Shown in pieces: positions 3,777 through 23,758 of a DNA stretch of 23,758 nt. Both the position numbers and the translations under genes were made by a program. The notes beneath the pieces were generated by a model, which searched no databases, was not told where the DNA came from, and saw nothing but the letters and a program-made list of their open reading frames with translations. The DNA is from Gemmatimonadota bacterium (GTDB taxonomy: Bacteria > Gemmatimonadota > Gemmatimonadetes > Gemmatimonadales > GWC2-71-9). The stretch lies in contig JAOTWK010000014.1 of NCBI GenBank assembly GCA_029862935.1, forward strand, positions 1-23,758, read 5' to 3'. The number at the start of each line of letters is the position of its first letter. The first letter of the stretch is position 1.

Positions 3777-4201
3777 GGGTCCTCACGGCGAACCGTCACT
3801 GCACCGTCGCGGTCGATCGCGACGATGTCGTCCGATGCGAGCGTCGCGAAGTCGTGATTGCTGAGGGCCACGATGGGAATCGGCATCCCAAAGACCTCGT
3901 CGGCCACAATGGATGCCAACGCCACGAACGCGTCGACCCCTGTCGTGACGATCGCCGCCGGGGCCGTGCCAGCGCGGATGGCCTCGAGCAGGATGGCGGT
4001 GGTCGTGGACGAGCCGCGGGTGAGCGGAATTACCAAGATCTTGCCGACGGCACGCTTGCCGGCAAGGGGATGCCGGCGATCGATGATCTCCCCGGAGCGT
4101 GGGTCGTACCCACCCCAGAACGAGAGCGGCTCGCTTGCGGCGAGCACCGGCCCCAATGCGGTGCCCGGCACCAGCGGACGTCCGCGAAGGATCAGCGCCA
4201 C
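3773..4201 (-). CDS. Aconitase X small (swivel) subunit, DUF126 family
   Basis: 142 residues from a GTG start at 4201, matching the family's usual N-terminus (ALILRGRPLVPGTA). The sequence shows family landmarks: SEPLSFWGGYDP (23-34), IIDRRHPLAGK (39-49), RGSSTTTAILLE (62-73) and RAGTAPAAIV (76-85). The serines in RGSS belong to the active site at the interface with the large subunit. Two-gene aconitase X enzymes are dehydratases; known substrates in the superfamily are cis-3-hydroxy-L-proline in bacteria and phosphomevalonate in archaea. The GTG overlaps the last ten bases of the large-subunit gene. An upstream in-frame start at 4249 would extend the overlap to 58 bases and adds residues the family lacks. 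The downstream lipoprotein gene overlaps by ATGA. Confidence 0.88.
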   Translation of the reverse strand: MALILRGRPLVPGTALGPVLAASEPLSFWGGYDPRSGEIIDRRHPLAGKRAVGKILVIPLTRGSSTTTAILLEAIRAGTAPAAIVTTGVDAFVALASIVADEVFGMPIPIVALSNHDFATLASDDIVAIDRDGAVTVRREDP

Positions 4202-5466: not shown

Positions 5467-5494
5467 CAGCGAGCGGCAGTGCCCCACGAACGAG

Positions 5495-6901: not shown

Positions 6902-6964
6902 GAGGAATCGACTGTAATCTACACGGAGTGCAGAGCCGTGTGGCGCGTGCTGCGCGCGGCGGAC

Positions 6965-7642
6965 CTACAGTGATGCCGTCGCCGGCCGGCCATTCAGCGG
7001 GATGATGTCGAGATACCGGTGCCGCTCGGCCTCGCGCGTCGTGCCGCGAACGAAGCCGACCGGCTGCGCGAAATCCGGCCCGTCGAACACGAACGTGTGA
7101 TACTCCCCGCGCTCGCCGCAGGGGTCGAGCCTCTCCACGCAGCTCAGCTCGGTGACCACATCCGCGTCGAACTCGCGTCCCAGGTATGGGACCGCCGGGT
7201 GGTCCAGATGCACGCTGATGATCAGCGCGCGATAGCCGCGCTCGACCACCTCCCAGGCGATCTCCACGGGCGGGTCACCCCACAACGGTTCGATGTGATC
7301 CAATCCGATGTCACGTACCCGTTCTTCGTACCAGCCGCGCACGTCCGCCAAATGCACGTTGCCAAAGATCACGCCATCAACGTCTCGCCGGCGCAGGTCG
7401 CGCAGCAGGTCGAGGAACGCGGTTTCGAAACGCTCGCCCGTCATCGGCGCGACGATGGGCTGGAGTCCGAGTGCGGCCGCCTGACTTTCGAGGAGCTGTC
7501 GCCGCAGGCCGTGAAACCGGACCCGTTCGCTGGGCGCGTCGTAGAGGGCGGTGAGAAAGCGGACCTCGAGACCGGTACGTCGAGCGCGATCGAGGGCGAT
7601 CGTGGCGTCCTTGCCGCCGCTTGTCATGAGCGCGTACGCCAT
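6965..7642 (-). CDS. Diphthine-ammonia-ligase-like ATP-binding protein (COG2102 type)
   Basis: 225 residues. The N-terminal PP-loop SGGKD at 8-12 binds ATP. Further family marks are FGNVHLADVRGWYEERV (93-109) and DPCGERGEYHTFVFDGP (173-189). In eukaryotes and archaea this family amidates diphthine on elongation factor 2. Bacteria lack diphthamide, so the bacterial members must use another substrate; the chemistry is probably ATP-dependent amidation or adenylation of a carboxylate. The ATG at 7642 gives the usual short lead before the PP-loop. The gene is divergent from the ABC transporter gene, so bases 7643-7713 probably hold promoters for both. I am confident of the family; the biological role is not known. 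Confidence 0.85.
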   Translation of the reverse strand: MAYALMTSGGKDATIALDRARRTGLEVRFLTALYDAPSERVRFHGLRRQLLESQAAALGLQPIVAPMTGERFETAFLDLLRDLRRRDVDGVIFGNVHLADVRGWYEERVRDIGLDHIEPLWGDPPVEIAWEVVERGYRALIISVHLDHPAVPYLGREFDADVVTELSCVERLDPCGERGEYHTFVFDGPDFAQPVGFVRGTTREAERHRYLDIIPLNGRPATASL

Positions 7643-7713
7643 TGGGCAGAATGTACGGCTGGGCCCGGGTGCCGGAAGGGTTGACGGGTGCCCGACGGCC
7701 TGCGTCTTTCCCC

Positions 7714-9573: not shown

Positions 9574-9644
9574 GTGGGCAGTGACCATCGGGCGATCGCA
9601 GATCCGATCCCAATTCCGCACGTGCTGACGAGAGGACCAGAGCC

Positions 9645-10949
9645 ATGACCGACGCGCAGGCTGCCAACGGGACGGCCAAGTCGTCACCGCCTGTGATGTT
9701 TCGTTGGGCGGTGATGGTGATCATCTCGCTGGCGATGTTCGGCAACTATTACGTCTACGATTCCATCGCCCCCATCGCCGACATTCTCAAGGCCGATCTC
9801 GGTTTCAGCGACGAGAACATTGGGCAGCTCTACTCGTTCTACAGTATCGCCGCCGTCGTCGTGCTCTTGATCGGCGGCATCGTCATCGACCGATTCGGCA
9901 CGGCCAAGTCCACGATTATTTTCGGTTCCATCTGTGCGGTCGCTGGCGTCTTGAACGCGATCTCCGCGGAGCTGACGGTCATGCTGGTGGCCCGCGTGCT
10001 GTTGGGGATTGGCTCGGAGCCGCTGATCGTCGCCATCACGACCGCGCTTGCCAAGTGGTTCAAAGGCAAGGAGCTGAGTTTCGCGTTCGGGCTCAATCTG
10101 ACTATTGCCCGACTCGGCTCGGTCGCGGCCGACAACTCTCCGAGCTGGGCGGGCTTCGCGTATACCGGCTGGCAGATGCCGCTCGTCGTCGCAGCGGTGC
10201 TCGGGGCCCTTTGTGTGTTCTCGCCCATTGGGTATGCCGCATTCGAGCGGCATGCCGAGCGCCGGTACGAGCTCGGTGAAGCCGGAGAGACGGACAAGTT
10301 CGTGTGGGGCGACCTGTTCCGATTCGACCGGTCGTTTTGGCTCGTCGTTGCTCTGTGTGCCACGTTCTATTCGGCGATCCTCCCGTTCCGCAGTTTTGCG
10401 ATCAAGTTCTTCATCGAGAATCATGGCATGACGCGCGAGGCCGCCGGGGCGATGAACAGCATGCTGCCGCTCGCCGCCATGGTGGCGACCCCGATCTTCG
10501 GGCTCTTGGCGGATCGCTTTGGCAAGCGCGCGCTCATGATGGCGGGGGCGTCGTTCCTCATCATGCCGGTCTATCTGATGATGGCCTACCACGTGACGCC
10601 ACTCGGCGTACCGGTGGCCATGATGGGGGTGGCGTATTCGCTCATTCCGGCGGTCATGTGGCCGTCGGTGGCGTACATCGTGCCGCAGCAACGGCTGGGC
10701 ACGGCCTACGCGGTCATGACGCTGGTGCAGCAGATCGGTGTGGCGGCGATGAACTGGATCATCGGTCGAACCAACGACGCCTATGGGGCAACCGCGGCCA
10801 ATCCCGACGGCTACGTCGCGGGCATGTGGATCTTCTCGATCCTCGGGATTCTCGGCATCATCTTCGCGATCGCCCTGCGCCGAGTCGAGACCGGTCCGAA
10901 GGCCCACGGGCTGGAGACCATTACGACGAAGACGTCGAAAGCGGAGTAG
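9645..10949 (+). CDS. MFS transporter, MFSD1-like
   Basis: 434 residues with twelve predicted transmembrane helices. GGIVIDRFGTAKST (77-90) is the MFS loop 2-3 motif, and GLLADRFGKRALM is its counterpart in the second half. The stretch WFKGKELSFAFGLNLTIARL (138-157) closely resembles animal MFSD1, as does the N-terminal FGNYYVYDSIAPI region. From memory, vertebrate MFSD1 is a lysosomal dipeptide uniporter, so a peptide or amino-acid substrate is a reasonable guess for this inner-membrane protein. The ATG at 9645 is preceded by AGAGGA with eight bases of spacing, which fixes the start. It lies 71 bases behind the ABC exporter gene and may be co-transcribed with it. A small stem-loop follows the stop codon. 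Confidence 0.88.
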   Translation: MTDAQAANGTAKSSPPVMFRWAVMVIISLAMFGNYYVYDSIAPIADILKADLGFSDENIGQLYSFYSIAAVVVLLIGGIVIDRFGTAKSTIIFGSICAVAGVLNAISAELTVMLVARVLLGIGSEPLIVAITTALAKWFKGKELSFAFGLNLTIARLGSVAADNSPSWAGFAYTGWQMPLVVAAVLGALCVFSPIGYAAFERHAERRYELGEAGETDKFVWGDLFRFDRSFWLVVALCATFYSAILPFRSFAIKFFIENHGMTREAAGAMNSMLPLAAMVATPIFGLLADRFGKRALMMAGASFLIMPVYLMMAYHVTPLGVPVAMMGVAYSLIPAVMWPSVAYIVPQQRLGTAYAVMTLVQQIGVAAMNWIIGRTNDAYGATAANPDGYVAGMWIFSILGILGIIFAIALRRVETGPKAHGLETITTKTSKAE

Positions 10950-11204: not shown

Positions 11205-12518
11205 ATGTCCGGTGTGACCTTGGGAAGCTGGCCCGGTCCCCCTGGTCGTTATCACGCAATGGACGGCCTGCGGGGAAGCATGATGCTGCTGGGCGTGGCG
11301 CTCCATGCGGCCGTCGCCTACATGCGCACCCCCCTGGGCGAGTTGTGGGGCTTCAAGGACCAGCACACGCACTACGGCTTCGACGTGCTCGTCGCTGTGG
11401 TGCACACCTTTCGCATGCCGGTCTTCTTCGTCATGGCTGGGTTCTTTGCCGCGTTGTTGTTCTACCAGCGCGGAGCCCACCAGATGATTCGCAACCGCGC
11501 GCAGCGCGTGCTCGTACCGCTCGCGATCGGGTGGCTTGTGCTCTTCCCCCTCACGATTGCAGGGTTCGCATTTGCGAGGTTGGGGGGGGCAGCGAACGCC
11601 ACGTCTGATGCCATCCGCTACGCCGCAAGCACGGCAATGCTTGAGCACCTTCAGCTCTTGCACCTCTGGTTCCTATTTGATCTGTTGGTGTACTACGGTG
11701 CGGCGCTGCTCGTATGCCGGTTGGTGCACCGGACGCCCGATGCCAGGCGCCGCAACGTCGCCGTTGGCTTCGGGTGGCTCCTGCAACGCTGGTACGCCCC
11801 ACTACTCCTGGCCGTCCCAACCGTGCTGACACTGGCACCGATGCCGTCCGGCATGCTCGAAACGCCCGGGACATTTCTCCGACCGCCAGCAACGCTCGCG
11901 GCGCATGGAGTCTTCTTCACGTTCGGCTGGTTGCTCTATCTGCGACGGGATCTGTTGCAGAGCCTGACGAAGCACGCCTGGGGTCGCACGTTGGCGGGGT
12001 GCGCACTGTTTCCCCTGCACGGCCTAGCGGTCATCCGGCTCGCTGGGCAGGCTGACCAAACGCTGCGCGGCGTTGCGATCGTGAGCTTGGCCGTGATGAT
12101 CTGGCTCTTCGTGTTCGGCCTGACAGGTCTGTTTGTACGGTACCTCGGCTCGCAGCGACCGCTCGGACGCTATGTGGCGGACGCGTCGTACTGGTTCTAC
12201 CTCCTTCACCTGCCGTTGGTGGTCTGGGGCTCCGGTTTGTTGGCCGGCCGGCCCTGGCCGGCCGGCGTGAAGTACGCCGTGCTTCTCACGGCCGTGGTTG
12301 TGGTCTGCTGGGGGACCTACGATGTAGCGGTTCGCCCCACCATCGTTGGCGTCTTCCTGAATGGACGACGATATCCTCGGGGGCTACCTGCGCCCGCAAC
12401 GTCCGAGATGCGACCTCTTGCAGGACCGGACGGCCGCGTATCGACGACGCCGGTGGAGCCCCACACGGGTTCCACGATATCAGTGCCTGGCAGGAGGTCG
12501 ATCAATGTCCAGCGTTAA
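11205..12518 (+). CDS. Membrane acyltransferase, acyltransferase-3 (OpgC-like) family
   Basis: 437 residues with about ten transmembrane helices. The N-terminus carries the family motif around the first helix, HAMDGLRGSMMLLGVALHA (17-35), with Arg23 and His34 matching the residues needed for acyl transfer. FRMPVFFVMAGFFAALL and RVLVPLAIGWLVLFPL are also typical. Such proteins move acyl groups (acetyl, succinyl or longer) onto sugars or lipids at the inner membrane; OpgC acts on osmoregulated glucans. ATG 11205 has no clear ribosome-binding site. The last 14 bases overlap the following radical SAM gene, so it is probably the first gene of that operon. The C-terminal 55 residues are polar and low in conservation. 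Bases 12243-12266 within it form a strong GC palindrome. Confidence 0.87.
   Translation: MSGVTLGSWPGPPGRYHAMDGLRGSMMLLGVALHAAVAYMRTPLGELWGFKDQHTHYGFDVLVAVVHTFRMPVFFVMAGFFAALLFYQRGAHQMIRNRAQRVLVPLAIGWLVLFPLTIAGFAFARLGGAANATSDAIRYAASTAMLEHLQLLHLWFLFDLLVYYGAALLVCRLVHRTPDARRRNVAVGFGWLLQRWYAPLLLAVPTVLTLAPMPSGMLETPGTFLRPPATLAAHGVFFTFGWLLYLRRDLLQSLTKHAWGRTLAGCALFPLHGLAVIRLAGQADQTLRGVAIVSLAVMIWLFVFGLTGLFVRYLGSQRPLGRYVADASYWFYLLHLPLVVWGSGLLAGRPWPAGVKYAVLLTAVVVVCWGTYDVAVRPTIVGVFLNGRRYPRGLPAPATSEMRPLAGPDGRVSTTPVEPHTGSTISVPGRRSINVQR
12243..12266. repeat. GGCCGGCC-rich inverted repeat inside the acyltransferase gene
   Basis: Two 11-base arms (12243-12253 and 12256-12266) are perfect reverse complements separated by CT, all G/C. 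Each arm contains GGCCGGCC. The same 11-base arm sequence appears at 6981-6991 and the octamer near 13573. It encodes Gly-Arg-Pro-Trp-Pro-Ala in the acyltransferase, so it may be only a by-product of codon choice. Confidence 0.5.
12492..12497 (+). promoter_or_regulatory. Strong ribosome-binding site fixing the first radical SAM start
   Basis: AGGAGG lies seven bases before ATG 12505, inside the acyltransferase coding sequence. It is the best Shine-Dalgarno sequence in the window and rules out the longer in-frame start at 12361, whose first 48 residues look like an out-of-frame reading of the acyltransferase. Confidence 0.8.
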
Positions 12519-13899
12519 GTTCCTCCTGATTCACCCCGCGTCGGCTCGGGCACGAGCGCTTCGCGGGCGCCGCAGGCCGACCGACCGGATCTTCCAACAA
12601 TCGGTTCTGCCGTGTCTCTATGTCGCAGCTGCCACGCCGCCTTGGGTGCACACGCACATCGTCGACGAGGACGTCGAGTCCATCGACTTCGAGGCAGATG
12701 TCGACCTGGTTGGTCTCTCGTTCATGACGCTGAGCGCGCCGCGAGCCTACGAAGTCGCCGACCGTTTTCGCAGGGAGCGAGGTATCCCGGTGATCATGGG
12801 TGGTTTCCATCCCACCGTGTGTCCCGAGGACGCGCTGTCCCACGCCGATGCGATCTGTGTCGGCGATGCGGAAAACAAGATGGCGCAGATCATGGTAGAT
12901 CTTCGCGCGGGTCGGCTCCAGCGCATCTACGATGGCCCGCCGCCGGACCTGGCCGATCTCCCGTTGCCCAATCGCCGCCTCTTGAGCCGCTGGCGCCACG
13001 CCCCGATCGATACGATTCAAGCAACCCGAGGCTGCCCGTATCGGTGCACGTTCTGCTCCGTCACGGCGTTTCATAACCACACGTATCGCACGCGCCCCGT
13101 CGAGCAGGTTGTCGACGAGCTCCGCACCCTGCGGACTCGCGTCCTGTTCGTTGACGACAACCTGATTGTCGATCGGGATTACGCGATGGAGCTCTTCGCG
13201 GCCATTGCGCCGCTCAAGAAGCGGTGGTACAGCCAGTGTAGTACGAGCATCGCCGACGACGCCGAGCTGCTGCGCCGAGCGGCCGCCAGCGGGTGTCGGG
13301 GCCTGTTCGTCGGATTCGAGTCGTTGTCGGAGCCCAACCTGGATGCGTGGCGCAAGGGGTTCAATCGCCCGCGCACATATGCCCGCACTGTCAAGAAGCT
13401 CCACAACGCCGGTATCGCCGTCTTCGCGGGGATCGTGTTCGGCATGGACGACGACACACCGGCCGTCTTTCGACGCACCCTCGAGTTCCTCGATCAAGCG
13501 GAGCTGGATTTTGCCGCGGCGAACGTCCTCACGCCGTTTCCTGGAACCCCTCTGTACGACGAGATGGAGCGGGCCGGCCGCATCTTCGAGCGCGACTGGG
13601 CCAAGTACGATTTCAACCATGTCGTGTTCCACCCGCAGCATATGAGCGCAGCAACGCTGCAGCACGGTGCCTACTGGGTCCGTGCGCAGTTCTACGATCG
13701 CAAGCCCGTCGCGCGGCGCATCATGCGCTCGCTAGGGTACCTCGACCCCGGCACGGTGCTCCACGCGATCGTGCCCCTCAATGTGGGTTTCCGCTCACGC
13801 ATGGGACGGAGCGGGACGATGCAGACCGGGCTCGAATATTGTCCCCCTCCGGCAGACCCGCACGACCGGTGGTCGCCCGTGTCGCAGGGCGTCGAGTGA
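12505..13899 (+). CDS. B12-binding-type radical SAM enzyme (first copy)
   Basis: 464 residues. The N-terminal part (about 1-150) has the Rossmann-like cobalamin-binding-domain layout, with VDLVGLSFMTLSAPRAYEVA and VIMGGFHPTVCPEDAL. The radical SAM domain carries the cluster-binding C-x3-C-x2-C as CPYRCTFC (Cys177, 181, 184), then FVDDNLIVD, the GFESL glutamate motif and TPFPGTPLYDEME. This class catalyses methylations, cyclisations or other C-C chemistry on lipids and natural products; hopanoid and bacteriochlorophyll enzymes are relatives in architecture. No canonical DxHxxG histidine motif is visible, which is common among such proteins. It starts within the acyltransferase gene and its stop overlaps the GH3-like start (GTGA). 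It is clearly paralogous to the enzyme at 20205 (shared CTFCSVTAFH). Cytoplasmic or membrane-associated. Confidence 0.88.
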   Translation: MSSVKFLLIHPASARARALRGRRRPTDRIFQQSVLPCLYVAAATPPWVHTHIVDEDVESIDFEADVDLVGLSFMTLSAPRAYEVADRFRRERGIPVIMGGFHPTVCPEDALSHADAICVGDAENKMAQIMVDLRAGRLQRIYDGPPPDLADLPLPNRRLLSRWRHAPIDTIQATRGCPYRCTFCSVTAFHNHTYRTRPVEQVVDELRTLRTRVLFVDDNLIVDRDYAMELFAAIAPLKKRWYSQCSTSIADDAELLRRAAASGCRGLFVGFESLSEPNLDAWRKGFNRPRTYARTVKKLHNAGIAVFAGIVFGMDDDTPAVFRRTLEFLDQAELDFAAANVLTPFPGTPLYDEMERAGRIFERDWAKYDFNHVVFHPQHMSAATLQHGAYWVRAQFYDRKPVARRIMRSLGYLDPGTVLHAIVPLNVGFRSRMGRSGTMQTGLEYCPPPADPHDRWSPVSQGVE

Positions 13900-15455
13900 C
13901 GGGAGGAGTCCTCAGCCGGCTAGCCAGACTCCCGGCCACCCCGCTGGGGCGCCTGCGGCGCGCGCTGCGTGATCCGGTCCGTACGCAACACCGGCTCCTC
14001 CGCAAGCTGTTGCGGCGGGCCGAACACACGGACTGGGGTCGCACGCACGGCTTTGCGCCTGCCCTCCAAAGCGACGATGTGGTGCAGGCCTTCCAGGAGT
14101 ACCAGGGTTTGAATAGCTACCATGCCGTTCGAGCGTACGTGGACCGCGCGCGTGCCGGTGAGGCGAATGTGCTGTGGCCCGGCCGCACGCGTCACTTCGG
14201 CATCTCGAGTGGCACGGTCTCGTCGGGTCAGTTGATTCCGGTGAGCCCCGCGATGCTCCGGGCGATGACGAGGAGCAGTCTCGTGCCCGGCTTGCAGTAC
14301 GGGAGTGTCAGAAGCTTCGGGTATCTCGGAGGCAAGATCCTGAGCATCCCCGGTGGTGTCTCGGAGGATCCCGCGCGGCCGGGCGTCTGGGTGGGCGAAG
14401 TCAGCGGGCTGATGGCGGCTGCGGTGCCGAACGTAATGAGCCGGCGCTTCCAGGCCATACCGCGGCAGTTGATGCTCATGGAAGGGTGGGATGAGAAGCT
14501 GCAGCAGATCGCGACGCACACCGCACGACAGGACATCAGGGCGATCATTATGGTGCCGAGCTGGGCGCCGATGCTGTTCGATATGGTGTTGGGCTCTTCC
14601 CAGTCGGACGCCACCACGCACGCGGCCCGCGTGCGTGAGGTCTGGCCTGGACTACAGGTGTTCTTTTCAGGTGGTGTGGCCCTGCGGTCGTACCGGCCCA
14701 TTCTCGAGCGGTACCTAGGCTCCGATGTCGATCTCATCGAGTCGTATTCCGCATCCGAAGGCTTCTTCGCCTTTCAGGATGACGTCGACGCGTGCGACCT
14801 CCTGCTGCACGTCGACAGCGGCGTGTTCTACGAATTCGTGCGAATCGAGGAGGTGGACCGTGATCGTCCTGCGCGCCACACGGTGGCCGACGTCGAGCCC
14901 GGCGTGGACTACGCGCTGTTCGTCTCGACGTGCAGCGGACTCTGGGCATACGAGGTCCAGGATGTGGTCCGCTTCACCTCAACGAGTCCACTGCGCCTCA
15001 GGGTCGTGGGCCGCACGGGTGCGATCCTCGACGAGTTCGGTGAGGCTCTTCATGCCGAAGAGGTAGAGCTGGCCCTCGCGCATGCTGCGCGTCTCACCGG
15101 CGCGCGCTGTCTGCACCATCATGTCACGTACGCGCCAACGACCGGCGCTGTCACGCAACACGAGTGGCTCCTGGAGTTTGCCGTTGCGCCCGACGACCTC
15201 GGGGCATTCACGGCGGCGTTAGACGGGTATCTCCAAGAGCACAACCGACATTACCTGATTCGGCGCGAGCCGGGCGTGCTGGCCCCACCGGCCGTGACGG
15301 TGTTGCCGAGCGGAGCGTGCGTGACCTATCTGCGGCGCCATCGGACTCGGATGAGCGCGCAAACGAAGCTGCCGTCGGTGAGCCCGGACCGCGACGTGGC
15401 GACGGGATTGCGTGAAGCGGCCGGCTCCCTCGTAGTGGAGAGCGGCCTGCAGTGA
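13896..15455 (+). CDS. GH3-like acyl-adenylating/amide synthetase family protein
   Basis: 519 residues resembling the GH3 auxin-responsive family, whose plant members adenylate a carboxylic acid and join it to an amino acid. Family regions visible: FGISSGTVSSGQLIP (101-115) for the phosphate loop, FFSGGVALRSYRPILERYLG (256-275), ESYSASEGFFAF (282-293) for the second ATP motif, and LWAYEVQDVVRF (349-360) for the third. Two departures stand out. The phosphate loop is a residue shorter and lacks the usual lysine, and the glycine expected before Asp357 is Gln. The enzyme may therefore use an altered reaction. The GTG at 13896 overlaps the previous stop (GTGA), and its own stop overlaps the next gene's GTG. 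The reading frame is open far upstream (to 13293), but that is inside the radical SAM gene and is not used. Confidence 0.83.
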   Translation: MTGGVLSRLARLPATPLGRLRRALRDPVRTQHRLLRKLLRRAEHTDWGRTHGFAPALQSDDVVQAFQEYQGLNSYHAVRAYVDRARAGEANVLWPGRTRHFGISSGTVSSGQLIPVSPAMLRAMTRSSLVPGLQYGSVRSFGYLGGKILSIPGGVSEDPARPGVWVGEVSGLMAAAVPNVMSRRFQAIPRQLMLMEGWDEKLQQIATHTARQDIRAIIMVPSWAPMLFDMVLGSSQSDATTHAARVREVWPGLQVFFSGGVALRSYRPILERYLGSDVDLIESYSASEGFFAFQDDVDACDLLLHVDSGVFYEFVRIEEVDRDRPARHTVADVEPGVDYALFVSTCSGLWAYEVQDVVRFTSTSPLRLRVVGRTGAILDEFGEALHAEEVELALAHAARLTGARCLHHHVTYAPTTGAVTQHEWLLEFAVAPDDLGAFTAALDGYLQEHNRHYLIRREPGVLAPPAVTVLPSGACVTYLRRHRTRMSAQTKLPSVSPDRDVATGLREAAGSLVVESGLQ

Positions 15456-17752
15456 CGGTCGTACGCCGAATGACGGATCTCATCGAGCGGTTCGCGCGCT
15501 GGATTGTCCTGCTCGCGGTGATCGGCACGGTGACGGCAGGCCTGGCCGCGCGAGGGTTGCGCATTGAGCACGCGCAGGAGAAGTACGAGCCGTCGGCGGA
15601 CGATCCCGTCGTTCGCTCGGTCGAGCAGTTCCGGTCCCGTTTCGGTGCTCGCACCTTGCTCGTCGCCGGGTTGGAGTTCGCCCAGCCGATTGGGGTCGAG
15701 GAGCTTCAGACCATCCAACGAACGGCGGACCGGCTCCGCACCCTGCCGTGGGTGGCCAATGTGCTCAGCGTGGCCGACGTTCGTCGCATTGCTTGGGGTC
15801 GAGAGGGACCTCGGGCGGAACGGGTCGTCGCAGCCGACGCGGCCGACACCACTGATATCGAGCAGCTACGACAACTCGTCGCTGGTACGCCGATCTATCA
15901 GCGGGGATTCCTGTCGTCCGACTGGCGCATGGCTGCGCTCGCAGTGGAGCTGGAACGGGAGGAGGGTGCTGGGCGGGAGGCACGCCAGGCGGAGCACGCG
16001 TTGCAGATTGAGCACCTGCTTCGAGACATGTCGGACGGGCGGTACGATGTGCATTTGACCGGCATGCCGCTGCTCAATCGTGCGCTCCAGGAGAGCGCCC
16101 GTCACGATGTGCGGTTGTTCGGAGCGCTCACCGCGGTGTTCGTCGGAGGAATTCTGCTGCTGTTGTTTCGGCAGTGGCGGCCGATGGTGCTAGCCACCGG
16201 AGTAGCGGCGATCGCGCTCACGTGGACCATCGGTGTGCTGGCAGCGACCGGGACGCCGATGTCGGCATCGCTCACGATGCTGGTGCCACTGATTCTGGTC
16301 CTGAGCGTGGCATTCTCGGTGCACTACCTCACGCATTTCTACGGGAAGGGAGTGCTCGACGCTCCGCGGGATCGGTTCCGCGCGATGATGCAGGTGGTGT
16401 TTCCTCCGAGCATCCTGACCGGTTTGACGACCGCGGCCGGATTCCTGGCGCTCGCCTCCAGCAGGCTCGCGAGCGTACGGGAAACCGGCTTGTTCATCGC
16501 GGCTGGTGTGCTGCTGAGCATGCTCGCTGCGAGTGTGCTCTTACCGACGGTGCTTAGCCTGCCGCGCATGGGTTCTCCCGGTACGGGTCAGATGTCCAGG
16601 CTCCCCGGCAGGATGACGCGCGCGATGACGGATGTCGTGAAGCACCGTGCTAGCCTCATCGTTGTGAGCGCAGCTGCTCTCACCGTTCTCGGAGCGACCG
16701 GTGCCGCGCGCTTGCGATTCGACGCCAATCCGCTGCGCTTTTTCTCACGCGACGAGCCGTTTCGCCGATCGACGGAAGTCATCGATAGTCGGTTGGGCGG
16801 AAGTCTGCCGCTCGAGATCGTCGTGCAAAGACCTCGAGACAGTCTGGCGGGCCTCGTCCCGGCGATCCTGCAGGTACAGCACGAGCTGCGAGCGATTCCC
16901 GAGTTCGGCTTTGTCGGCTCGGCGGCAGACTTCTTGGAGATGGCCGAAGCGGCGCGCCCCCGCATCATGCCTCGCATCTACGACGCAGCGGCGGGGCGCT
17001 TCCCCGCCCGCGTGTGGAGCCGGATGGCTGCGGAGCCTGGCTTGCAGGGATACGTGGCTGAGGATTCGGCGACGCTGTGGCTTCGTATTACGAGTCGGGT
17101 CCGGATTAGCGACTCCGACGCGCTCCGGCGTCTGGTGCAACGCGTGGAGAGTGTGCTGAAGAAAGAGTCGCTCGCGCAGGCGTCGGTGACTGGGCTCGTA
17201 CCCCTGCTGCTCCGCACGCAGGAGTACATGGTCCAAAGTCAGATCTCCAGTTTCTTGCTCGCCTTCACCGTCATTCTCTTACTGGTGTTCCCGTTCGTGC
17301 GAGATTGGCGTGCCGGCACGATCGCCGTGCTCGCCAATGTGGTTCCCCTGGTCATCGTGCTGGGCGTGATGGGATGGCTCGGTATCCCAATGGATATTGC
17401 CTCGATCATGATCGCCAGCATCGCACTTGGCATTATTGTCGACGATACGATCCACTTTCTGTACCGCTACCGCACGTGTCGCGCCGAGGGGTTGGGCACT
17501 TTTGCTGCCGTCGAGCAGACGTATAACGTGGTCGGCATTCCGATTGTCGTGACGTCGATCGTTCTCATTGGGGGGTTCCTGATCCTCACGGCGTCAGTGT
17601 TCCAGCCCACGAGCACGTTCGGTCTGCTCGCGGCAGTGACGATTGCGGCCGCGTTCGTTGCCGACTTGCTCCTCATGCCAGCGCTGCTCCTCGCCCTTCA
17701 CGGGGAATCGCGCCCACGGGAGCCGGCGAGGACAGGGGGTCACCTGGCGTGA
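15452..17752 (+). CDS. MMPL/RND-family transporter (HpnN-like architecture)
   Basis: 766 residues with the two-fold repeat of RND proteins. A first helix (about 16-34) is followed by a periplasmic domain (about 35-218), five helices (about 220-372), then another single helix (about 400-418), a second periplasmic domain and a final helix bundle (about 600-760). HYLTHFYG in the fourth helix and VDDTIHFLYRYR in the tenth are the usual charged or proton-relay positions. FPPSILTGLTTAAGFLALA matches the sterol-sensing-like core. Members move hydrophobic molecules across the envelope: HpnN moves hopanoids and MmpL proteins move mycobacterial lipids. No adaptor or outer-membrane partner is encoded nearby. 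The GTG start overlaps the GH3-like stop, and its stop overlaps the next GTG (both GTGA), so translation is probably coupled and the cargo is likely the cluster's product. Confidence 0.9.
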   Translation: MTVVRRMTDLIERFARWIVLLAVIGTVTAGLAARGLRIEHAQEKYEPSADDPVVRSVEQFRSRFGARTLLVAGLEFAQPIGVEELQTIQRTADRLRTLPWVANVLSVADVRRIAWGREGPRAERVVAADAADTTDIEQLRQLVAGTPIYQRGFLSSDWRMAALAVELEREEGAGREARQAEHALQIEHLLRDMSDGRYDVHLTGMPLLNRALQESARHDVRLFGALTAVFVGGILLLLFRQWRPMVLATGVAAIALTWTIGVLAATGTPMSASLTMLVPLILVLSVAFSVHYLTHFYGKGVLDAPRDRFRAMMQVVFPPSILTGLTTAAGFLALASSRLASVRETGLFIAAGVLLSMLAASVLLPTVLSLPRMGSPGTGQMSRLPGRMTRAMTDVVKHRASLIVVSAAALTVLGATGAARLRFDANPLRFFSRDEPFRRSTEVIDSRLGGSLPLEIVVQRPRDSLAGLVPAILQVQHELRAIPEFGFVGSAADFLEMAEAARPRIMPRIYDAAAGRFPARVWSRMAAEPGLQGYVAEDSATLWLRITSRVRISDSDALRRLVQRVESVLKKESLAQASVTGLVPLLLRTQEYMVQSQISSFLLAFTVILLLVFPFVRDWRAGTIAVLANVVPLVIVLGVMGWLGIPMDIASIMIASIALGIIVDDTIHFLYRYRTCRAEGLGTFAAVEQTYNVVGIPIVVTSIVLIGGFLILTASVFQPTSTFGLLAAVTIAAAFVADLLLMPALLLALHGESRPREPARTGGHLA

Positions 17753-18753
17753 GTGACCTGCGAGCACGTGTCTCTCGAGCCATGGTATTCTTGAGGGCTC
17801 GAGTAGTAGCATTCAAGCGAAGCCGACTGGGTGCGCGCAGCTTCCAGGTGGTGCGCGTCCTCTTCGTTCTCGCGGTGCTCGCGTGGTTGGGGTATCGGCT
17901 CTCCAGCATCGGATGGCAGGAAGTCTGGGTCTCCCGCCCGCGAACGCCCTGGTTCTACGTGACGTGGGTTGGATTGTACCTGCAGCTCCCCCTGGTCGAA
18001 GCGCTGATCTTCCGGTCCGTCTGGGGTCTCCCGATACGCGAGAGCCTGCTGCCGCTGTTACACAAGCGCACCTTGAACCAGGACGTCGTCAGTGGGCTCG
18101 GGGAGGCATCCTTCTTCATGTGGGTCCGGCGCGACGGGAGTCTGTCCGACGGTGAGATCGCCGGCACGCTGAAGGACAATCTCATCGCCTCGTCCCTGGC
18201 GTCGTGGACCTCGATTGTACTCCTCTTCCTGCTCACCGGCCCACTCCTGTTGACCACGCTCCTCGCCGACAGTGGTCCGTTGTACGTGGTGGGTGGTGGT
18301 CTCCTCACCATTCTCGTAATCGTGCTCGGGATGCACTTCAGGAGACGAATCCTCACGCTCGAACCGCGAACTGTCCTAACCGTCACGCTGGTTCACTTCG
18401 GACGCTTCGTCCTGTTCGTCTACCTACTGCAGGTCATCCAGTGGTGGGTGGTCGAGCCCGATGCCCCGCTCCGGCTCTGGGCGGCGATGTTGGTCGTCGC
18501 GACGGTGGTCAGTAGGGTCCCGTTCATTCCCGCCAAGGATCTGGTGGGCATCGGTGCCATTCTCGGAGTGCTGGTGCTGCCGGAAGCCTTCGAGGCGACG
18601 ATTGCGGCGATGTTGCTCATGCGTACGGTGCTCGACAAGGTCACCAATTTGGTGGTGGCCGTCATCCACTTCGCACTCGACCGAGGAAGCCGTTCACCTG
18701 CCTCGCTACCTGCTGACGACGCGATGACTACGAGGTCACGCGCGACACCGTGA
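17749..18753 (+). CDS. Polytopic membrane protein, possibly flippase-like
   Basis: 334 residues with seven or eight predicted transmembrane helices (about 34-52, 68-90, 148-172, 178-196, 212-233, 242-260, 264-282, 286-308). The layout and the near-C-terminal stretch VPFIPAKDLVGIGAILG (257-273), followed by AAMLLMRTVLDKVTN, are loosely reminiscent of the YbhN/UPF0104 or LPG-synthase membrane family. That family includes the hopanoid-locus protein HpnL. The match is weak and I would not assign it firmly. The GTG start overlaps the MMPL stop (GTGA), making it the last gene of the coupled run. It ends 16 bases from the end of the convergent GNAT gene. Role in lipid flipping or transport beside the MMPL protein is inference from position. 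Confidence 0.7.
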   Translation: MSDLRARVSRAMVFLRARVVAFKRSRLGARSFQVVRVLFVLAVLAWLGYRLSSIGWQEVWVSRPRTPWFYVTWVGLYLQLPLVEALIFRSVWGLPIRESLLPLLHKRTLNQDVVSGLGEASFFMWVRRDGSLSDGEIAGTLKDNLIASSLASWTSIVLLFLLTGPLLLTTLLADSGPLYVVGGGLLTILVIVLGMHFRRRILTLEPRTVLTVTLVHFGRFVLFVYLLQVIQWWVVEPDAPLRLWAAMLVVATVVSRVPFIPAKDLVGIGAILGVLVLPEAFEATIAAMLLMRTVLDKVTNLVVAVIHFALDRGSRSPASLPADDAMTTRSRATP

Positions 18754-18769
18754 GCATCGCACGCGTCGT

Positions 18770-19903
18770 CTACAGTGCTTTGTGGAACAAACGGTAGGTC
18801 TTGAGCGGTCGCCCGCCGAACGCGTCGATCACGCGCCGGATGCGCTCGTTCGTCACCTGCACTAAGGACAGCTCGGCCCTCTCGATGCCCAGGTCGCGCG
18901 CGGCCATCGCCGTGCGGTGGGCGAGCAACACCGCGATCCCGCGCCCGGCGAACTCGGGCAGCACGCCGAGCAGAATGAATCGAGCGGACTGGATGCGCGG
19001 AATCGCTCGCGCGAGGCGCAGCCATCCAAACGGCCACAGGCGCCCCCCGATAGTCGCTAGTGCCTCGTTGACGTCGGGAAGGGCAAGCGCAAAGCCGACC
19101 ATCCGTCCGTCGACCTCGGCGAACACAGCTAGCTCAGGACGATAGAACTTGCGGAATTGGCTGGCGCGGCTCAGGTACTCGTGCCAACTGAGTGGCACGA
19201 ATCCCCACACGTCGGCGAACGATCGATTGTAGACGTCGAGCAGCGTTCGCCCCTCATCGATCCAGTGTCTGGGATCAGAGTGGCGCAGGCGCACGCCTCC
19301 GGGTGCAGTGCCCCGGGCAAGCCGCTGGACAATCCGCTGCGCCGCCGGGGATGTCGAACGCTCGAGATCCCAGCTGAACGACTGGTAGTCGGTCCAACAT
19401 GCGTAGCCGGCATCGGTGAGCAGCCCCTCGTACCAGGGTGGGTTGTAGGGTGAGAGCAGCATGGACCTGGACTCAAAGCCCTCGACCAGTAGACCGACTT
19501 CGTCGTGCATGGTCAGATTCACGGGACCGAACACACCAGTCCGTCCCTGCGTCCGCAGCGCCGACTCGGCGGTTTCGAGAAGGGCGGAAGCCACGCGTGT
19601 GTCGTCGACGGACTCGAAGAAGCCGAAGAACCCCGAATGCGGTTCCCATCGCGTCGCGAAGTCGCTGTCGACAACTGCGGCGATCCGGCCCACGATGGAG
19701 CGGTCTTGGCGTGCGATGAACCGCTCCACCCATCGCGATCCGAGCGACGGGTTGTGCCGCGCCGACCAGCGACTGCGTTCCGTCTGCCGCAAGGGAGGAA
19801 CCCAACATGGATCGCCGCGATACAGTGCGTGGGGCAAATCGCAGAACGTGCGGTGCTCTGATGCGGAACGCACCCGAGTGACGGCGATATCCCCAGTGGG
19901 CAT
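18770..19903 (-). CDS. Long-form GNAT-family N-acyltransferase
   Basis: 377 residues. The N-terminal half has conserved features of a long GNAT subgroup I associate with E. coli YghO: YRGDPCWVPPLRQTE (28-42), ARHNPSLGS (48-56), then GRIAAVVDS, FGFFES, FGPVNLTMHDEVGLLVEGF and LSPYNPPWYEGLL. The C-terminal half is a second GNAT fold with LLGVLPEFAGRGIAVLL as the acyl-CoA pyrophosphate-binding motif. It should transfer an acyl group from a thioester to an amine. GNAT-type bacterial ceramide synthases are known, so N-acylation of the product of the alpha-oxoamine synthase encoded at 23053 is an attractive guess. ATG 19903 is preferred: a TTG at 19939 is in frame but lies within the predicted promoter. 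The gene is on the strand opposite to both flanking operons. Confidence 0.82.
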   Translation of the reverse strand: MPTGDIAVTRVRSASEHRTFCDLPHALYRGDPCWVPPLRQTERSRWSARHNPSLGSRWVERFIARQDRSIVGRIAAVVDSDFATRWEPHSGFFGFFESVDDTRVASALLETAESALRTQGRTGVFGPVNLTMHDEVGLLVEGFESRSMLLSPYNPPWYEGLLTDAGYACWTDYQSFSWDLERSTSPAAQRIVQRLARGTAPGGVRLRHSDPRHWIDEGRTLLDVYNRSFADVWGFVPLSWHEYLSRASQFRKFYRPELAVFAEVDGRMVGFALALPDVNEALATIGGRLWPFGWLRLARAIPRIQSARFILLGVLPEFAGRGIAVLLAHRTAMAARDLGIERAELSLVQVTNERIRRVIDAFGGRPLKTYRLFHKAL

Positions 19904-19910
19904 GCGGCGC

Positions 19911-19939
19911 AGGTTAGGCCAGGTCAAACTCGGTGTCAA
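19911..19939 (-). promoter_or_regulatory. Predicted sigma-70-type promoter of the GNAT gene, likely leaderless
   Basis: On the minus strand a perfect -35 TTGACA (19939-19934) is followed after exactly 17 bases by TAACCT (19916-19911), which keeps the three most conserved -10 bases. A start site about seven bases further on falls at or next to the A of ATG 19903, and no ribosome-binding site is visible. A leaderless mRNA is therefore predicted. Confidence 0.5.
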
Positions 19940-20194
19940 ACCCCTGCCCCTTGCCCGGATTCGACGTCGACGGTATGTGGGAGAGAGTCGGTTAGCCTAC
20001 ACGCACTGACCGAATTCCTGTGGGATGAGGTGCGTGTTGCCCGCAGCAATCCTTTGTGGCTCAAGCACTTGACGGTTTCTTGCCTCGAGTGCGCGAAGTT
20101 CTCTCGTGAGGGGCGGCAATGCGCGGTGGTGTCGTGCGGCTCGTTGACCCAGGCGACACCGTACTCGCGTGCGCGGTCTGCAGAACGGGGTAAC

Positions 20195-20199
20195 GGAGG
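20195..20199 (+). promoter_or_regulatory. Ribosome-binding site GGAGG before the second radical SAM gene
   Basis: GGAGG is five bases before an in-frame GTG (20205) and seventeen before the homology-favoured ATG (20217). An out-of-frame five-codon reading frame (ATG 20203 to TGA 20220) lies between and overlaps the ATG as ATGA, so the site may act directly on the GTG or through coupling. Confidence 0.6.
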
Positions 20200-20204
20200 C
20201 CCAT

Positions 20205-21536
20205 GTGCATTCGGCGATGAACATCCTATTGGTCGGCCCGACGGCACTTGATTCTCAGGGTACGCCGATCAAGCAGCGCCGGCTGCATTTGCCGGGGCTC
20301 ACGCTTCCCATGCTCGCGGCCGTCACGCCAGGGGATGCGCGGATCCAGCTCGTCAGCGAGACTGTCGAGGATATCCCGTTCGACGGCGACTGGGACCTCG
20401 TCGGGCTGACCGGCATGGGCTCGGGCATCGTGCGCGCCTGGCAGATCGCTGACGCGTTCCGCGAGCGGGGACGGACCGTCGTCATCGGCGGGATTGCGGC
20501 CAGCCTGGGCCAGTTAGAATGGTCGCTGTCGCATGCCGACGCAGTGGTGGTCGGCGAGGCGGAGGAACTTTGGCCGCAGGTGGTGGCAGATGCCGCCGCC
20601 GGCCGGCTGCAGCAGGTCTATCGGATGCAGCGTCCGCCGTTCATCGACACGCTGCCCGAACCGCGCTACGACCTGATGAACCCGTGGAAGCACGGTCTGT
20701 GGCGGCCGGTTCAGGCGACGCGCGGCTGCCCGTTCCCGTGCACATTTTGCTCAGTCACCGCGTTCCATGAATCGCGATACCGCAAACGTCCAGTAGACCA
20801 GGTCGTTCGCGACGTGCGGGCCGCTCGACGTCACGGAAGCCGGTATATCGCGTTCATCGATGACAACATCGCGGTCGATTGGGATTATTGCGCCGAGCTG
20901 TGGGAGGCGCTCATTCGGGAGCGGATCATCTGGATGAGCCAGAGCAGTCTCCATATCGCCGAGCGGCCAGACATGTTGCGTCTCGCCCATCGTGGCGGCT
21001 GCCGGCTCCTCTCGTTTGGGGTGGAGTCGACCGGGGAAGACAGCCTGGCCGGTATCGAGAAGCGCTTCAACCGGCCCGGCCAGTACGCGGAGGCGGTGCG
21101 GACGATACGCCGCCACGGCATCGATGTCTCGACGGAAATGATCATCGGCCTGGACGGCGACGATCGGTCGGTGTTCGAGCGGACCTTCAGGTTTCTCATA
21201 GAGAACGCGATCTCTGTGCCCCGCGTGCACATCTTGACCCCGGTGCCGGGAACGCCGTTGTACGACGAGATGGAGCAGGACGGAAGGTTGCTGACGCAGG
21301 ACTTCGGCCGCTTCACGGGGGGCTACGTCACCTTCCGTCCAAAGCGACTGTCCGTAGAGGAACTACAGGTAGGCTACTGGAATCTGTATCGAAAGCTGTT
21401 TAGCTGGCGGTCAATCCTGCGTCGAGCGGGACACAATCGAGCTTCGCTCGGTCCGTACATGCGAGCGGTCGTGTGGGCAGTGAATCTGCATTATCGCAAC
21501 CACATCCACCGACGCATCACGCCGGGTATCGTCTAG
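20205..21536 (+). CDS. B12-binding-type radical SAM enzyme (second copy)
   Basis: 443 residues from GTG 20205, or 439 from ATG 20217 (MNILLVGPTA, the more typical family N-terminus). Residue numbers here count from the ATG. The N-terminal Rossmann-like domain includes DLVGLTGMGSGIVRAWQIA (60-78) and VVIGGIAASL (88-97). The radical SAM cluster motif is CPFPCTFC (Cys171, 175, 178), followed by FIDDNIAVDWDY, SFGVES and TPVPGTPLYDEMEQDGR. The sequence parallels the enzyme at 12505 nearly end to end (ATRGCP, CTFCSVTAFH, FNRP, TPxPGTPLYDEME), so the two are paralogues that probably act on related substrates or successive positions. The B12 DxHxxG motif is not visible. It is the first gene of the rightward operon; the third radical SAM gene starts 14 bases after its stop. 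The precise reaction is unknown. Confidence 0.87.
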   Translation: MHSAMNILLVGPTALDSQGTPIKQRRLHLPGLTLPMLAAVTPGDARIQLVSETVEDIPFDGDWDLVGLTGMGSGIVRAWQIADAFRERGRTVVIGGIAASLGQLEWSLSHADAVVVGEAEELWPQVVADAAAGRLQQVYRMQRPPFIDTLPEPRYDLMNPWKHGLWRPVQATRGCPFPCTFCSVTAFHESRYRKRPVDQVVRDVRAARRHGSRYIAFIDDNIAVDWDYCAELWEALIRERIIWMSQSSLHIAERPDMLRLAHRGGCRLLSFGVESTGEDSLAGIEKRFNRPGQYAEAVRTIRRHGIDVSTEMIIGLDGDDRSVFERTFRFLIENAISVPRVHILTPVPGTPLYDEMEQDGRLLTQDFGRFTGGYVTFRPKRLSVEELQVGYWNLYRKLFSWRSILRRAGHNRASLGPYMRAVVWAVNLHYRNHIHRRITPGIV

Positions 21537-21550
21537 TGTCTGGAGGCACC

Positions 21551-23056
21551 ATGCGCGTGTTGTTGGTTCGTCCTCCCGTTCCGCCGCACACGATCGGGCT
21601 CAAGCATGTGATGGTCTGCGAGCCGCTCGAGCTCGAGTACGTGGCCGCCGGGCTCGATGGTCACGAAGTCAACATATTCGACGGCCTCCTCGAGGGTGGC
21701 TTGGAGCACCGGATTCGGGCGTTTCGACCGGACGTGGTCGGCACGAGCGCGTACATCACCGGCGTGAACGAGGCCATCAAAGTGTGCCGTTCGGCCAAGC
21801 GGTGGAACCGGGCATGTCGCACCGTGGTGGGGGGTGTCCATGCGGCCTGCGCGCCGGAGGATTTCGTGGACGCTGCCGTGGACTGCGTGGCACTGGGTGA
21901 CGGCACGACGCTCATGCCGGAGTTGATGGAGGCCTTTGCCGGGAGGTGCGCGCTCGACGAAGTGCCGGGTTTGGCTGTCCCGCGGGGTGATGGTCTCCTC
22001 TTCACGAAGGAACGTACGTACATGCCAGACCCGGACCTGCTCCCGCTGCCGAGGCGTGACCTCGTGGCGCATCTCCAGCATCGCTACTACTACCTGTTCC
22101 ACCAGCCGGTCGCCACCGTGAAGACGACATGGGGCTGCTGGTACAAGTGCAACTTCTGCTTCACTTGGCAGATTACCGGCGGGGTACCGTACTCCCGCAG
22201 CCCCGAGTCGATCGCTCAGGAGTTGGCGCAGATCGAGGCGCGGGATGTTTACATCGTGGACGACATCTTTCTCATCAACCGCTCGCGTCTGGCGCAGCTC
22301 GCCGAGCTCCTCCGTCAGCGAGGCATCCGCAAGAACTACCTCGTGTACGCCCGTGCTGACTTCATCGCCGAGAACGAAGACGTTATCGCTGAGTGGGCCC
22401 GGCTGGGGTTGCGCGCCGTATTCATTGGGTTGGAGGCGACCACGGATCCTGAACTTGACGCGATGAACAAGCAGTGCACGGTCGACTGGAACCGTGAGGC
22501 GATCGCGGTGCTGCGACGCCACGGGGTCGACACGTACGGATCGCTTATTACCCAGCCGGATTACGAGGCGGAGGATTGGGCCAGGCTCAAGCGATTCATC
22601 GACGAGACCGGCCTTTACTACCTGAATGTGTCACCACTCACCCCACTTCCGGGGACGGAGATCTGGGACACGTACAAAGACAAAACGGTGATTGACCGGC
22701 AGGCGCACGGGCTGTGGGACCTGTCGCACGTTCTTCTCCCCACCCGGCAGCCGCTCAAGTCGTATTATCGGTCCCTGCTGAGTGTGTATCTCCACTCGTG
22801 TCTGGACCCACGCAGGGCAAACCGCTTGTCCCTCAGAACGGCCCCGCCGATCTTCTCGCGCAAGTTCCTGCGACTGTGGCTCGGGGGTCTGCGGGTGGCG
22901 ATGCAGTTCCTGGTTGCCCATCGCCATCACACCGGGCGCGAGCTGGCCAGGGCGCGCGACCGCGGCGAGCCAGTCGCTGGGCTGCACGACGCGCCGCGGA
23001 CGGACGCATTGCCGCGCCAAACGTTCGCTCCAGTGGAAGGACGGGTGCCTTCATGA
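21551..23056 (+). CDS. B12-binding-type radical SAM enzyme (third, divergent)
   Basis: 501 residues. The N-terminus MRVLLVRPPVPPH and the following LELEYVAAGLDGHEVNIFDG (27-45 region), DVVGTSAYITG and VVGGVHAACAPEDF are typical of the cobalamin-binding half. The cluster motif is CWYKCNFC (Cys196, 200, 203), followed by VDDIFLINRSR, FIGLEATTD and LTPLPGTEIWDTY. It is only distantly related to the copies at 12505 and 20205 and is nearer in style to HpnJ- or BchE-like enzymes. The C-terminal 100 residues are basic and may contact membrane or a carrier protein; the final 40 look disordered. GGAGG four bases before ATG 21551 fixes the start. The stop overlaps the ATG of the alpha-oxoamine synthase gene (ATGA), so the two products should be made together. 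Confidence 0.87.
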   Translation: MRVLLVRPPVPPHTIGLKHVMVCEPLELEYVAAGLDGHEVNIFDGLLEGGLEHRIRAFRPDVVGTSAYITGVNEAIKVCRSAKRWNRACRTVVGGVHAACAPEDFVDAAVDCVALGDGTTLMPELMEAFAGRCALDEVPGLAVPRGDGLLFTKERTYMPDPDLLPLPRRDLVAHLQHRYYYLFHQPVATVKTTWGCWYKCNFCFTWQITGGVPYSRSPESIAQELAQIEARDVYIVDDIFLINRSRLAQLAELLRQRGIRKNYLVYARADFIAENEDVIAEWARLGLRAVFIGLEATTDPELDAMNKQCTVDWNREAIAVLRRHGVDTYGSLITQPDYEAEDWARLKRFIDETGLYYLNVSPLTPLPGTEIWDTYKDKTVIDRQAHGLWDLSHVLLPTRQPLKSYYRSLLSVYLHSCLDPRRANRLSLRTAPPIFSRKFLRLWLGGLRVAMQFLVAHRHHTGRELARARDRGEPVAGLHDAPRTDALPRQTFAPVEGRVPS

Positions 23057-23758
23057 CGCTTCCCCGATCGAAATTCGAAGAGCCAGTGCTCGGACGGCTC
23101 CGCGATCCGTTCGGCGGGCTCTTCGCGGATCAGCAAGTACCGCCACGTGAGTCTCTGGTAGATACGCCGTCCGCGCGAGCGTGGTTCGAGCTCCTGCGGT
23201 GGGGCTATGAGAACGACCTCTACACTTATCAGCCGCCGCTCGAGGGCCGCTCCGGCGTGCGGGTGCGCGTGGACGGCGAGTGGCTGCTGATGCTGTCCTC
23301 ATATGACTACCTCGGCTTCATCGGACACCCCCGGATCACCCAGGCCGCTGTCGCGGCGGTCCGCGAATACGGGACCGGTACGGGAGGCGTACGGCTCCTG
23401 ACGGGCACGACCGACTTGCACCTGGAACTCGAGCGCGAGCTCGCAAATTTCAAGGGTACCGAGGCGGCCATTACGTTCAGCACGGGGTACGGCGCCAACC
23501 TCGCGGTCATTCCGGCGCTGATCGGGCCGCGCGATCGCGTCCTCGTAGATGCGAAGGCGCACCGTAGCATCATCGACGCTTGCCGGCTGTCGAGAGCCTC
23601 GGTCCATCGTTTCGAGCACAATGACATGACCGCACTCGAGAAGCTCCTGAGCGCTCAGCCGGGCGGACGGACTTTGGTCGTGGTGGAGGGCATATATTCA
23701 ATGGACGGCGACACGACCCCGCTTCCAGCGGTGGTCGCGTTGAAAGAGCGGTATGGTG
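23053..23758 (+). CDS. Alpha-oxoamine synthase (SPT/KBL/AONS family), 3' part missing
   Basis: 235 residues are visible before the window ends. The family uses pyridoxal phosphate to condense an amino acid with an acyl thioester, releasing CO2 and giving an amino ketone. Serine palmitoyltransferase, 2-amino-3-ketobutyrate CoA ligase and 8-amino-7-oxononanoate synthase belong to it. Visible motifs are SSYDYLGFIGHPRI, GTGTGGVRLLTGTTDLHLEL, FKGTEAAITFSTGYGAN, VDAKAHRSIIDACRLS, FEHNDM and VVVEGIYSMDGD. The cofactor lysine lies beyond the edge. An N-terminal extension of about 90 residues before the core, with FELLRWGYENDLYTYQPPLEG, resembles the longer serine-palmitoyltransferase-like forms and not the short AONS. 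The ATG overlaps the stop of the radical SAM gene. The substrate cannot be decided, but a long-chain acyl donor fits the locus. Confidence 0.88.
   Translation, partial: MTLPRSKFEEPVLGRLRDPFGGLFADQQVPPRESLVDTPSARAWFELLRWGYENDLYTYQPPLEGRSGVRVRVDGEWLLMLSSYDYLGFIGHPRITQAAVAAVREYGTGTGGVRLLTGTTDLHLELERELANFKGTEAAITFSTGYGANLAVIPALIGPRDRVLVDAKAHRSIIDACRLSRASVHRFEHNDMTALEKLLSAQPGGRTLVVVEGIYSMDGDTTPLPAVVALKERYG

Follow-up and report, generated by a model that had tools for sequence, protein, structure and literature searches.

The DNA considered here is a stretch of 23,758 nucleotides (the window) from contig JAOTWK010000014.1 of the Gemmatimonadota assembly GCA_029862935.1, and its right-hand part, positions 11205–23758, holds nine genes that may together make and export an acylated amino amphiphile. 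The first five lie on the plus strand. They encode, in order, an OpgC/MdoC-like acyltransferase-3 membrane protein (11205..12518; Pfam Acyl_transf_3, 102.1 bits; MdoC model, 159.1 bits against a cut-off of 338), a B12-domain radical S-adenosylmethionine (radical SAM) enzyme, rSAM1 (12505..13899; Pfam Radical_SAM and B12-binding, both over cut-off), a GH3 acyl-acid amido synthetase related to OlsH (13896..15455), a HAE3-like pump of the MMPL/RND superfamily (15452..17752; Pfam MMPL, 107.8 bits; HAE3 model, 192.3 bits, cut-off 351.9) and a polytopic membrane protein, here called TM (17749..18753), which has no Pfam match even at an E-value of 10. A long GNAT N-acyltransferase follows on the minus strand (18770..19939, with an alternative ATG at 19903; Pfam Acetyltransf_1 over cut-off). 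The plus strand then carries the highly conserved radical SAM enzyme rSAM2 (20217..21536), a further B12-domain radical SAM enzyme, rSAM3, nearest to the HpnR model (21551..23056), and the N-terminal 235 residues of an alpha-oxoamine synthase, AOS (23053..23758; Pfam Aminotran_1_2 over cut-off). The AOS is incomplete because the end of the window cuts its frame; its orthologues P0122–P0125 have 420–428 residues.

Five of the six joints between neighbours on the same strand overlap, the acyltransferase-3 and rSAM1 genes by 14 nt (with rSAM1 starting at the ATG at 12505), and rSAM1/GH3, GH3/MMPL, MMPL/TM and rSAM3/AOS by 4 nt each. At the sixth, rSAM2 and rSAM3 are separated by 14 nt (21536/21551). 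The gene starts are the analyst's choice among the open frames. The GNAT gene interrupts the set, converging on TM with 16 nt between them and diverging from rSAM2. The locus is two plus-strand operons around one reverse gene rather than a single operon, the left one consisting of acyltransferase-3, rSAM1, GH3, MMPL and TM and the right one of rSAM2, rSAM3 and AOS. The acyltransferase-3 gene stands first in the left operon and is assigned to the pathway by its position only. All nine genes had been named in the original prediction, which was made from the letters of the sequence, as packed together with overlapping starts, and all of them were located.

The GH3 protein matches the N, M and C domains of its family in Pfam over cut-off, and its best NCBIfam model is the lyso-ornithine lipid synthetase OlsH (NF052613; 303.2 bits, below the cut-off of 620). 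When a structure model built from 50 sequences (pLDDT 88.1, pTM 0.75) was compared using Foldseek, the first 28 rows were GH3 acyl-acid amido synthetases (TMq 0.54–0.77), including, in row 27, FIN219, which we take to be GH3.11; PaaK-type ligases came next (TMq up to 0.60). Judged by this modelled fold, amide formation by the window GH3 is likely. In the ornithine-lipid pathway of Singulisphaera (PMC12493201), OlsH forms N-acyl ornithine in an ATP-dependent manner. That pathway likewise has a bacterial GH3 of an amide-forming family in an operon. However, the window GH3 falls below the OlsH cut-off, and the window has neither OlsI nor OlsG; no alpha/beta-hydrolase of the OlsI type, which shares an operon with OlsH in planctomycetes, is among the nine genes at 11205–23758. 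The terms radical SAM and MMPL are absent from the main text of that paper.

The closest named relatives of GH3 include one from a Gemmatimonadales/Gemmatimonadota bin (P0005). Across the 146 genomes of the class to which genome G001 belongs (hereafter Rhodothermia-type genomes), a GH3 match was found in 84. A scan of genome contigs gave 80 loci, nearly all of them named as members of Bacteroidota, and at only four of these were other window genes matched besides GH3: TM at L001 (127 bits), AOS at L046 and L059 (86–89 bits) and MMPL at L078 (113 bits). Eight plasmid records matched GH3. No relative of it was found in phage records, and one scan each of viral contigs gave no relative of GH3, rSAM1, rSAM2 or rSAM3.

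The three radical SAM proteins all match Radical_SAM over cut-off and retain the CxxxCxxC motif. They had been described as three enzymes of the B12 type; the B12-binding domain is over cut-off in rSAM1 and rSAM3 and under it in rSAM2 (24.1 bits, cut-off 32.1). The latter is 41% identical to rSAM1 and lies under every curated family cut-off. Its 51 chosen homologues are 66–84% identical to it (columns 72% identical on average across 52 rows), and identities of 68–73% extend to proteins named Gemmatimonadota, Acidobacteria, Thermoanaerobaculia, Planctomycetota, Roseomonas and Chitinophagales. Homologues bear names from five phyla; the closest named relatives include Gemmatimonadales/Gemmatimonadota bins (P0259, P0268). 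The structure model of rSAM2 (pLDDT 91.7) is nearest in fold to the dehydratase AprD4 (TMq 0.76), followed by MgmA, CysS, TsrM, MiaB, OxsB and TokK. AprD4, MgmA, CysS, TsrM, OxsB and TokK have their fold in common with rSAM2 (TMq 0.64–0.76), although the identity is just 14–20%, and none of the six is known as a lipid enzyme. Going by the model, methylation by rSAM2 is possible, with no preference for it over dehydration or a different radical reaction. The earlier proposal that radical chemistry acts on a lipid chain is tentative, the nearest solved fold being that of a dehydratase.

The best model of rSAM3 is HpnR (TIGR04367; 237.7 bits), the hopanoid C-3 methylase, whose domain layout it shares. 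Taken together with the best-model scores of rSAM1 (HpnJ, 93.1 bits) and MMPL (HpnN, 90.2 bits), this might be read as a set for hopanoid tailoring resembling HpnR/HpnJ/HpnN. However, the scores are far below the respective cut-offs of 650, 577.6 and 751.85 bits, and no squalene-hopene cyclase was found among the 19 window frames scanned. Such a set is very improbable, and it was rejected because all of its models are far under cut-off.

The AOS was compared with known families by its grouping and by its pocket. The full-length orthologues P0122–P0125, which are 70–74% identical to the window's part, are under every NCBIfam cut-off. In a tree of 60 rows, the window AOS grouped with 26 rows from the database (SH-aLRT 96), and the AOS of a related locus in genome G046 joined them (support 99). 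This group stood next to 22 SPT-like rows (SPT, serine palmitoyltransferase; fork support 84) and apart from four KBL rows, three glyCac rows and one BioF row. It is a quick tree with long branches, including L228, L255 and a very long one for the only BioF row, and its SPT-like group includes L251 (G046), which does not adjoin a GNAT. In S. multivorum SPT, according to PMC10196870, the hydroxyl of serine contacts Asn52 via water and the carboxylate contacts Ser81 via water. Both residues are retained in all 22 SPT-like rows. At the position of Asn52, Tyr was found in the window AOS, in 9/9 orthologues, in 108 of 110 further rows (the other two have Cys) and in the G046 AOS; at that of Ser81, Val was found in the window AOS, the orthologues and the further rows (120/120) and again in the G046 AOS. 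Since Val is also present in the four KBL and three glyCac rows, Tyr at position 52 is the distinguishing change. The window piece stops upstream of the PLP lysine, which is retained in 9/9 orthologues and 108 of 110 further rows (two gaps), and the SPT motif GTFSK, a site beyond the window end, reads GSLSK in 9/9 orthologues. The tree and the alignments place the window AOS in a clade of its own with a changed pocket.

An ordinary sphingolipid pathway, in which SPT and a bacterial ceramide synthase act and the radical SAM genes are incidental, has to be weighed at this point. The best solved-structure match of P0123 is the Sphingobacterium SPT, and SPT-like AOS often adjoin long GNATs. However, P0122–P0125 reach 340–355, 327–337 and 241–268 bits with three SPT models whose cut-offs are 640, 500 and 670, so that every one of these models stays below cut-off, and the window clade has the three replacements described above (N52 to Y, S81 to V, GTFSK to GSLSK). 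Among the 19 frames scanned, in a window that ends inside AOS, there is no ceramide reductase, acyl carrier protein or acyl-CoA synthetase. This pathway is an improbable explanation, and the suggestion that AOS begins sphingolipid synthesis is weakened because the residue that contacts the serine hydroxyl via water is Tyr here. A firm grouping with biotin-pathway AONS was not seen either, AOS standing apart from the sole BioF row, whose branch is very long. BioF was rejected as an identity for AOS on that tree position and on a score below cut-off, yet it is the top-scoring model.

The long GNAT family matched 145 of the 146 Rhodothermia-type genomes. In 20 regions around these genes, chosen by the analyst from the same genomes, an AOS was present in 18: within 350 nt and on the same strand in 16, and, in two more, at distances of 2.7 and 5.9 kb; the last two regions had none. 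The best model of three such neighbouring AOS that were scanned was the Bacteroidetes SPT model (491–510 bits, cut-off 640). The idea that the GNAT is the N-acylating partner of an AOS gains from these 16 close pairs, which, on the strength of gene neighbourhood, support N-acylation of AOS products as the job of the family. The sphingolipid module likewise consists of an AOS (SPT) with a long GNAT nearby, namely bCerS, which we take to be a GNAT. The window differs from that module in the pocket and clade of its AOS and in having two radical SAM genes between AOS and GNAT. The name bCerS is used in PMC11334938.

TM homologues were found in 104 and MMPL matches in 41 of the 146 Rhodothermia-type genomes, and 24 plasmid records matched MMPL. 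In L182, a locus from one of these genomes, genes for TM, a DUF3047 protein and an MMPL protein are adjacent (L182:5709–10004). Relatives of this DUF3047 protein were present in all 15 Rhodothermia-type regions selected by TM, and 11 of these regions held a relative of the L182 MMPL frame. The pairing of MMPL with TM in the window fits these neighbourhoods.

Parts of the locus recur in other genomes, for which reason its arrangement cannot be put down to chance proximity; it is real and recurrent in parts. The neighbourhoods compared lie outside Gemmatimonadota, the window itself excepted. In the distant genome G046, rSAM2 (65%), rSAM3 (58–64%, in two pieces) and AOS (49%) stand in the same order as in the window. 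Beyond AOS come a PF13480 GNAT, a P450, a convergent long GNAT (38%) and then a sulfotransferase. The G046 locus has a 23S_rRNA_IVP frame (PF05635; L199:11529–11984) between rSAM2 and rSAM3, and its rSAM3 frame exceeds that of the window by about 100 residues. G046 also carries a second long GNAT and an SPT-like AOS, apart from each other. It was the only genome with a match to rSAM3 among 146 (E 1e-40) and the only one of 114 genomes from its order to match rSAM2 (E 1e-90).

GH3 relatives were also compared with rSAM2 relatives, solely through the listed sizes of the contigs that carry them. The first 13 GH3 rows and 120 rSAM2 rows had sizes of 8125, 8447 and 16204 bases in common besides the window's own 49826, four in all, against a control mean of 0.084 and with none of 2000 controls as high. 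GH3 and rSAM2 are listed on the 49826-base contig and the cut AOS on a 23758-base one. The window thus seems to be the whole of the latter, and the same DNA seems to be present in a longer assembly as well.

The association of GH3 with radical SAM genes was seen again on an IncF plasmid of Citrobacter portucalensis (NZ_CP134684.1, 52126–63512; L208:17127–28513). This cluster consists of GH3, four radical SAM genes interspersed with a GNAT gene, PAP2, a fifth radical SAM gene in reverse orientation and a desaturase; three of its five radical SAM proteins are over the B12-binding cut-off. It resembles the window in combining GH3, radical SAM genes and a GNAT, and no published description of it was found. 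It differs in that its GH3 is only 27.6% identical over 87 residues and that no window-type AOS, MMPL, TM or long GNAT is present in the 49-kb plasmid stretch. No E. coli genome closely matched its DNA, which among plasmids matched only itself. The Rhodothermia-type genome G113 carries three radical SAM genes and one for a Rieske protein. It also has proteins related to three from Citrobacter, namely the GNAT (28%), the hypothetical protein (32%) and GH3 (34%), and its radical SAM proteins pair one-to-one with three of those of Citrobacter (tree support 98/93, 100/98 and 100/99). The window rSAM1 groups weakly with the GH3-linked enzymes of both (54/90). Of four plasmid matches of rSAM2 and rSAM3 that were examined, one, from Acetoanaerobium noterae, shows a tandem array of a gene resembling rSAM2 (42%), three that resemble rSAM3 more weakly and, among them, a methyltransferase gene (L204:11389–17398). 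Over 26.7 kb it gave no match to AOS, GH3 or GNAT; the record is labelled plasmid and is 2.6 Mb long.

The conserved co-occurrence that had been proposed as a check was found in pieces, as rSAM2-rSAM3-AOS with a long GNAT in G046 and as GH3 with radical SAM genes in Citrobacter and G113, but not in the 36 regions fetched around GH3 genes of Rhodothermia-type genomes, one TM match excepted. A rival explanation is two separate functions that are neighbours by chance or through shared regulation, a GH3/rSAM1/MMPL/TM operon that would make and transport an N-acyl amino acid lipid, and an rSAM2/rSAM3/AOS operon. The GNAT does divide the set, the G046 locus is without GH3, and GH3 stands apart in the Rhodothermia-type regions that were fetched. 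However, the three further same-sized contigs common to GH3 and rSAM2 relatives, and the recurrence of GH3 with rSAM1-like enzymes in two other lineages, make such a division rather unlikely. A doubtful but slightly stronger candidate, which overlaps with the preferred explanation, is a secreted natural product (a signal, an antibiotic or a metal ligand) with an alpha-aminoketone core in place of a membrane lipid. The patchy distribution in the genomes searched, the related plasmid cluster in Citrobacter, the oxidases in relatives (P450, Rieske, desaturase) and MMPL export would agree with it. It is opposed by the absence of a non-ribosomal peptide synthetase, polyketide synthase or carrier protein from the 19 frames scanned, and by the strong conservation of rSAM2, which is more typical of a core function.

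Taken together, the locus is predicted to be a mosaic one that makes and exports an acylated amino amphiphile, be it a membrane lipid or a secreted product, an explanation with roughly an even chance of being right. It is based on the identities of the genes, the predicted folds of GH3 and rSAM2, the distinct AOS clade and the recurrence of rSAM2-rSAM3-AOS (with GNAT) and of GH3 with radical SAM genes. The most likely function is the synthesis and export of such an amphiphile with radical tailoring. AOS would join an acyl thioester to an amino acid that is not serine, or is bound differently from serine, giving an alpha-amino ketone. The long GNAT, the ATP-dependent GH3 ligase or both may then add an acyl group or an amino acid via amide bonds. 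Unactivated carbons of the chain or head would be altered by rSAM1–3 through methylation, dehydration or rearrangement, O-acylation by the acyltransferase-3 protein is possible, and MMPL and TM would move the product across the membrane. The original proposal of an unusual, radically altered and exported amino-lipid is supported in part, by the amide-type GH3 fold, the AOS position in the tree, the AOS-GNAT neighbourhoods and the MMPL-TM pair; its sphingolipid start is weakened, and radical chemistry on the chain is tentative.

Several observations weigh against a mosaic amphiphile locus. No carrier protein, ketoreductase or acyl-CoA ligase is among the 19 window frames scanned. Window-type radical SAM, MMPL, GNAT and AOS genes were near GH3 in 0 of 36 Rhodothermia-type regions (tblastn, E 1e-6, >50 bits; chosen by the analyst, about 9 kb on each side where the contig allowed), and a TM match lay beside GH3 in one (G001, C105). 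The 84 genomes matched by GH3 do not include G046. A search of 395 phylum-sample genomes, with mostly four or fewer candidates scored per genome, matched rSAM2 in G046 only (E 1e-80). The GNATs of the window and of the G046 locus are apart in the best tree, with their joint grouping not rejected (AU p 0.064). Contig sharing was at chance level for AOS with rSAM2 (2, control mean 0.84) and for GH3 with AOS (1, mean 0.86). The rSAM1-like loci L224 (G123) and L225 (G074) hold no other window or Citrobacter gene. BioF is the top-scoring model for the AOS piece in the window (195.6 bits, below cut-off) and the best one for P0122–P0125 (382–392 bits with TIGR00858, cut-off 426.45). A Shinella plasmid (L205:7626–9809) carries an rSAM2-like enzyme (33%) and GNAT genes with NHLP/Nif11-type leader peptides, and therefore a radical SAM enzyme with a GNAT is not diagnostic of lipids. 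The independent scattering of homologues, which had been named beforehand as telling against a joint pathway, was seen in part; in G033, for instance, the GH3, MMPL, TM and GNAT homologues are far apart on one contig.

To the left of the locus, ten frames scanned at 533–10946 (a set that excludes the cut frame at the far left) belong to ordinary metabolism and transport. An equally ordinary aconitase-X pair of two genes, swivel domain and AcnX, is at 3773–5589 on the minus strand.

The gene combination is probably undescribed. In line with what had been supposed, no description of it was found among the best-ranked matches in the open-licence literature, and a search there that joined radical SAM with GH3 gave no paper. 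For the present, the locus is best classed as a variant of known lipid or amphiphile loci, and not as a system of a new kind. It may, tentatively, stand for a new class of bacterial amphiphiles, with a Tyr-pocket AOS clade, widely shared tailoring by rSAM2 and rSAM3, and versions linked to GH3 that have moved between phyla, in one case onto an Enterobacterial plasmid. Once fixed, the product of the locus would assign a reaction to rSAM2 and to the AOS clade with the changed pocket, and it would explain the association of GH3 ligases with radical SAM enzymes.

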